DNA of 64,000 nucleotides from Chromatiales bacterium (GTDB lineage Bacteria; Pseudomonadota; Gammaproteobacteria; Thiohalomonadales; Thiohalomonadaceae), in assembly GCA_003251535.1 (NCBI GenBank), contig QKFD01000108.1, positions 62,001 to 126,000 of the forward strand, given 5' to 3'. The translations under genes were made by a program, and so were the position numbers. A model generated the notes under the pieces. That model was not told the DNA's origin, did no database searches, and worked only from the letters and a program-made list of their open reading frames with translations. This document shows positions 52,046 through 52,334 of this stretch, one piece after another; positions within the stretch are counted from its first letter, which is position 1, and each line of letters starts with the position of its first letter.

Positions 52046-52123
52046 TGGTAAATTCCCCTTCTGCAATAAAAAATGGCAACGCCGCAGAGTATAACAACTG
52101 CGCGCCGTCACCAATAGAATTTG

Positions 52124-52207
52124 TCCGCTCTCCGCTCTCCGCTCTCCGCTCTCCGCTCTCCGCTCTCCGCTCTCCGCTCTCCGCTCTCCGCTCTCCGCTC
52201 TCCGCTC
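52124..52207. repeat. Heptanucleotide tandem repeat, 12 copies
   Basis: Exactly twelve perfect copies of TCCGCTC (84 bases) lie in the divergent spacer between the histone-like gene and the glutaredoxin gene. A seven-base unit is prone to slippage and would change promoter spacing by about two thirds of a helical turn per copy. The rest of 52046-52334 shows no other gene. Confidence 0.95.
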
Positions 52208-52334
52208 GATTCTGTCGGCGCTGGGTTGTGCTTGTAAACGCGGTCGCCGGTTTGCCTCTCTCCAATGGTGGATGGTCGTCGCGGCCACAGCGACGTAAAA
52301 TCTCACTTGGTGATTGAACGATGAGAGAAGAGAG

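Follow-up and report, generated by a model that had tools for sequence, protein, structure and literature searches.

A divergent intergenic region in a draft gammaproteobacterial genome carries exactly 12.0 perfect copies of the heptanucleotide TCCGCTC. In our judgment, this array is probably a young microsatellite generated by replication slippage, situated outside the best core promoter candidate of either adjoining gene and most likely close to neutral. The array is an ordinary slippage-type microsatellite of a kind already known, and no finding in this analysis demonstrates on/off switching of a neighboring gene by the repeat.

The array and its neighboring genes

The array was defined by Tandem Repeats Finder (TRF) and direct reading within a window of 64,000 nucleotides, the whole stretch of DNA that was analyzed. 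TRF scored 100% matches and 0 indels over 84 bp (score 168), confirming the twelve perfect units of the original prediction. In 20 composition shuffles of the window, the longest period-7 stretch reached 22 bp as compared to the 84 bp observed. The head-to-tail 7-bp copies thus exceed chance, which places the array in the heptanucleotide SSR class. No partial or decayed edge units were found in the 35 bp on either side, where in-phase similarity was 0.26 and 0.34. Perfect identity together with the lack of edge units points to slippage as the most likely origin, as had been proposed from the identity of the copies. The interval initially assigned to the repeat, 52046-52334, is the whole 289-bp intergenic gap and not the array itself. 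The gene layout, with a minus-strand open reading frame (ORF) on the left and a plus-strand glutaredoxin gene on the right, agrees with the predicted location between two divergent genes (Table 1).

Table 1. Positions of the array, its flanking genes, and promoter-like elements in the window
Feature	Position	Strand	Basis or remark
Lys/Ala-rich ORF, 163 aa, MAVKKKSGSRTQ...	51554..52045	-	ATG at 52045; orphan
Candidate extended -10 of the Lys/Ala-rich ORF, TGT-TATACT	52088..52096	-	direct reading, inference
Weak promoter-like match ATAACA-18-TAGAAT, 9/12	52091..52120	+	consensus scan only
TCCGCTC array	52124..52207	plus = (TCCGCTC)12, minus = (GAGCGGA)12	TRF, reading, shuffles, edge test
Weak promoter-like match TTTACA-18-CAGAAT, 9/12	52209..52238	-	consensus scan only
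Best glutaredoxin -10-like hexamer, TAAAAT	52296-52301	+	direct reading, inference
Glutaredoxin, 89 aa	52335..52604	+	Pfam PF00462, E 5e-16

Of the two labels originally given to the neighbors, glutaredoxin was upheld by its Pfam match, whereas "histone/phasin-like" was not. The Lys/Ala-rich ORF had no Pfam or NCBIfam family above cut-off and no relative among 55 related genomes; thus, the label describes composition only. This ORF shows a clear codon-position bias (G+C of 0.61/0.58/0.78 by codon position), and its ATG is preceded by a ribosome-binding-like GAAGGGG. Glutaredoxin relatives in related genomes are 50-60% identical, and the regions upstream of them are unrelated to this gap and carry no such array. 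Because the Lys/Ala-rich gene has no relative among these 55 genomes and these upstream regions are unrelated, conservation of the intergenic region among relatives was rejected. A search with the glutaredoxin likewise yielded no named close relative, and the locus was found in no second strain.

Further genes were noted around the locus. A PagL (lipid A 3-O-deacylase) domain protein (50814-51500) adjoins the Lys/Ala-rich ORF, and a GYF_2 + AIM24 domain protein is encoded downstream of glutaredoxin on the opposite strand (52744-53745). The product of 48802-50424 is an ATPase near the XrtA/PEP-CTERM-associated ATPase model (E 1.5e-84, below the cut-off of that model), with a peptidoglycan-binding-like C-terminal part. 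In some related genomes (L010, L012, and L014), the glutaredoxin gene is neighbored on its upstream side by a gene for a Gly/Tyr/Pro-rich protein, which we presume to resemble sulfur globule proteins.

Occurrence of the heptamer within the genome and elsewhere

A whole-genome pattern search with the three-copy motif found no second site in the 4.63-Mb genome. Furthermore, the array was the sole period-7 array of at least 2.5 copies in 1.06 Mb sampled from the genome, a sample for which shuffles predict ~0.3 short stretches of this kind. Thus, being single in the genome, the array is not a dispersed regulatory motif. Both flanks had no other occurrence in the genome, which argues against a mobile element, and the inverted similarity between them was no better than random, as 596 of 1000 places drawn at random from the window scored as high. 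We therefore rejected the candidate TIRs or paired operators (arms TCACCAA/TTGGTGA and ACAAC..GCGCCG), as well as a mobile or dispersed element, since the flanks are unique and contain no significant inverted repeat. A mobile element or a symmetric operator pair around the array is unlikely. With DNA parameters, neither strand formed a stable single-strand structure, as the energies of -4.2 and 0 kcal/mol did not improve on those of shuffled sequences. Together, the unique flanks, the absence of folding and inverted pairing, and the clean edges fit recent growth by slippage.

Other short-period repeats were observed in the same genome. On contig C40 (L205:19232-19286), an octanucleotide array of 3.2 copies, CATCCAGA, adjoins another of 4.5 copies, CCAGACAC, and a hexanucleotide array, CATGAC, reaches 7.2 copies (L059:14285-14327). 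Period-6 stretches numbered 27 as compared to ~1.7 in shuffles (1.06 Mb), far above expectation. The heptamer GTTGCAG, a candidate prompted by the intergenic DNA of a relative, has no tandem pair anywhere in this genome.

An exact four-copy search over one genome per species found TCCGCTC arrays in at least 117 stretches, spread over many phyla. The matches listed included Verrucomicrobia, Planctomycetes, Bacteroidetes, Actinobacteria, Proteobacteria, and others, with copy numbers from 4 to 61.7. Among these listed arrays, no long flanks were shared beyond heptamer-like sequence, except for one pair, on two contigs of the same Clostridia MAG, that matched over 92 bp. This distribution over many phyla without long shared non-repeat flanks is as expected for independent slippage. 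A mechanical ORF call assigned 55 of the listed arrays to open frames and 30 to edges; the open-frame class is unreliable because the unit has no stop in any frame, and the array of the window was itself classed this way. Of the 33 listed arrays that were clearly between genes, 16 were codirectional, 13 convergent, and only 4 divergent. Thus, the TCCGCTC unit is not tied to divergent promoters. Edge similarity of at least 0.6 was found in 31 of 100 arrays elsewhere among the matches listed, unlike the array of the window with its much lower values. The three-copy motif was absent from the other 368 of the 369 gammaproteobacterial genomes searched, and a reversed-sequence control motif had matches in a few other genomes of the same 369. 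The unit is a recurrent but rare slippage product and not a conserved element.

The highest copy number among the matches listed, 61.7, was found in a Haematobacter massiliensis contig upstream of an apparent L-serine dehydratase gene (L157:6054-6485); another tandem tract, of a different kind, lies upstream of this array. We considered whether this array and another Haematobacter array of 19.3 copies are orthologous length variants, and rejected this because their flanks are not shared; the two are thus uninformative on variation at one locus.

The sequence comes from a draft genome of 130 contigs, and 30 of the 118 TCCGCTC arrays among the matches listed lie near stretch ends, several of them true contig ends. 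These features would suit an assembly or sequencing artifact, but 84 bp is short enough for ordinary reads to span and the site is well inside a 174-kb contig, which makes an artifact the least probable explanation of all. The exact copy count could nevertheless be off.

Promoter geometry and possible effects on expression

The original prediction held that a change in copy number would alter the spacing of promoter elements. For the best core promoter candidate of either gene, this was not supported, as each is located outside the array and such a change would leave its -35/-10 spacing as it is. Read on the minus strand from the array toward the gene, the sequence upstream of the Lys/Ala-rich ORF (...TTGGTGACGGCGCGCAGTTGTTATACTCTGCGG...) contains a short-spaced -35-like element, the putative extended -10, and then GAAGGGG and the ATG. 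The -35-like TTGGTG (complement of 52109-52114) is separated from TATACT by a short spacer of 15 nt, and the array starts 10 bp upstream of it. The consensus promoter scan, which requires spacers of 16-18 nt, missed this candidate. On the glutaredoxin side, the putative TAAAAT is located 89 bp beyond the array end and is accompanied by a poor -35, TGGTCG, at 52273-52278.

The consensus scan found two weak sites as compared to 0.4 expected, one at each outer edge of the array. The minus-strand match would place the array in the 5' UTR of the Lys/Ala-rich gene, and the plus-strand match would place it in that of the glutaredoxin gene; transcription of the array within a 5' UTR is thus possible. 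That these weak matches abut the array counts against its neutrality. If they acted as sigma-70-like promoters, they would start transcripts inside the array, a gain of copies would lengthen the 5' UTR, and copy number might set mRNA level or stability as in hmwA. This is very improbable, given that the matches reach only 9/12, that the minus-strand gene has a better-looking extended -10 on its own side of the array, and that neither array strand folds stably.

A translational switch was also considered. Starting at GTG 52306, a minus-strand reading frame stays open across the 12 copies and into the Lys/Ala-rich gene, and since 84 nt is divisible by 3, copy number could set the frame, with the gene on at 9, 12, or 15 copies. 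Several observations argue against this. Readthrough is expected in any case, as no frame of the array contains a stop codon. The extension does not share the codon-position bias of the gene, with G+C values of 0.61/0.55/0.61 in the part upstream of the array and 0.46/0.42/0.46 in the stretch that separates the array from the ATG. Moreover, ATG 52045 has its own ribosome-binding-like site, while none is visible for GTG 52306. An N-terminal extension through the array is thus disfavored by the codon-position G+C, and we see hardly any chance of such a switch.

The remaining alternative is transcriptional phase variation or tuning. Changes in copy number would then alter both the spacing and the helical phase of an upstream activator or repressor site relative to the promoter that serves the Lys/Ala-rich gene, or to those of both genes. 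The array lies between divergent genes and upstream of a core promoter candidate, its 84 bp (12 x 7) correspond to 8.0 turns at 10.5 bp/turn, and nadA offers a precedent of repeats distal upstream of a promoter that change operator spacing (PMC2791445). Against this, no operator pair was detectable around the array, with its flank score matched at 596 of 1000 random places, and a glutaredoxin and an orphan basic protein contrast with the surface structures typical of phase-variable loci. We regard this explanation as unlikely. Its narrower form, a heptamer contingency locus that jointly tunes glutaredoxin and the basic histone-like protein through helix phase at a divergent promoter, seems more doubtful still.

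We thus favor a young, nearly neutral microsatellite, which replication slippage would have made in the upstream part of the divergent intergenic region. By analogy and from its position, the array probably has no strong regulatory role. Any effect would be graded and would fall on the minus-strand gene, the candidate promoter of which starts 10 bp from the array. The gain or loss of one copy would move everything upstream by 7 bp, or ~240 degrees at 10.5 bp/turn, while three copies would amount to two turns and a return to the same helix face. Short tandem repeats in bacteria tend to be fewer than expected (PMC12699852), and a lone, pure 12-copy array between promoters may for this reason have been kept for a purpose, which speaks against neutrality. 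The array is a potential VNTR, the length of which could vary.

Comparison with known repeat systems

At present, the array could serve as a marker for strain typing, and it illustrates a repeat of the slippage type within a divergent promoter region. If its copy number varied and tuned expression, promoter-repeat phase variation would reach beyond the surface genes of pathogens to include a redox enzyme. The locus would then be a contingency locus in a non-model gammaproteobacterium, outside the usual surface-gene setting and linked to redox defense through glutaredoxin. The array resembles the combined hifA/hifB promoter of Haemophilus influenzae in that the repeat lies between two divergent genes. 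In that system, which van Ham et al. are said to have described in 1993, TA repeats reportedly lie between -35 and -10 and the genes are fimbrial, neither of which applies to the TCCGCTC array with its best promoter candidates and its two neighbors.

The promoter repeats proven to control expression, in hmwA (PMC8262952) and nadA (PMC2791445), both serve surface proteins and have demonstrated length variation. Like the (ATCTTTC)n tracts of H. influenzae hmw1A/hmw2A (PMC8262952), the TCCGCTC array is a perfect heptamer tract upstream of a gene, with a double-digit copy number. In hmw, the repeats overlap with two core elements, the P2 -10 and the P1 -35, and are part of the P2 5' UTR (PMC8262952), whereas the TCCGCTC array is outside the best promoter candidates. 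With regard to a repeat within or overlapping a core promoter or its transcript leader, as in hmwA and hifAB, the best candidates are separate from the array and the two weak 9/12 matches abut it. Furthermore, the hmw tract drives a surface adhesin with demonstrated variation and effect (PMC8262952), while the TCCGCTC array is known from one sequence and is located between divergent genes. The TAAA tract of Neisseria meningitidis nadA (NadR/IHF) shares with our array a position upstream of the core promoter, where a repeat can affect the spacing of distal sites (PMC2791445). In nadA, the repeat unit is a tetranucleotide, and operators on its flanks as well as an IHF site have been mapped (PMC2791445), while no flanking operators were detected around the TCCGCTC array. 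For regulator sites flanking the repeat as in nadA, the inverted flank similarity was no better than random in a test that covers symmetric pairs, which makes a symmetric site pair unlikely.

According to a passage in PMC4679880, most bacterial genomes contain more heptanucleotides than any other category of 5-11 nt repeats, and heptanucleotides are over-represented among the SSRs of many bacterial genomes (PMC4692102). For the G-rich heptamers of Xanthomonas and Nostoc, no regulatory role was identified, and these repeats are under-represented between divergent ORFs (PMC4692102). The TCCGCTC array resembles these GGGAATC-type repeats (PMC4692102) and the TAACTGA repeats of Beggiatoaceae (PMC4679880), which are likewise intergenic heptamers with an unproven regulatory role. 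Those families comprise well over a hundred arrays per genome, whereas here a different, non-G4 unit forms a single array.
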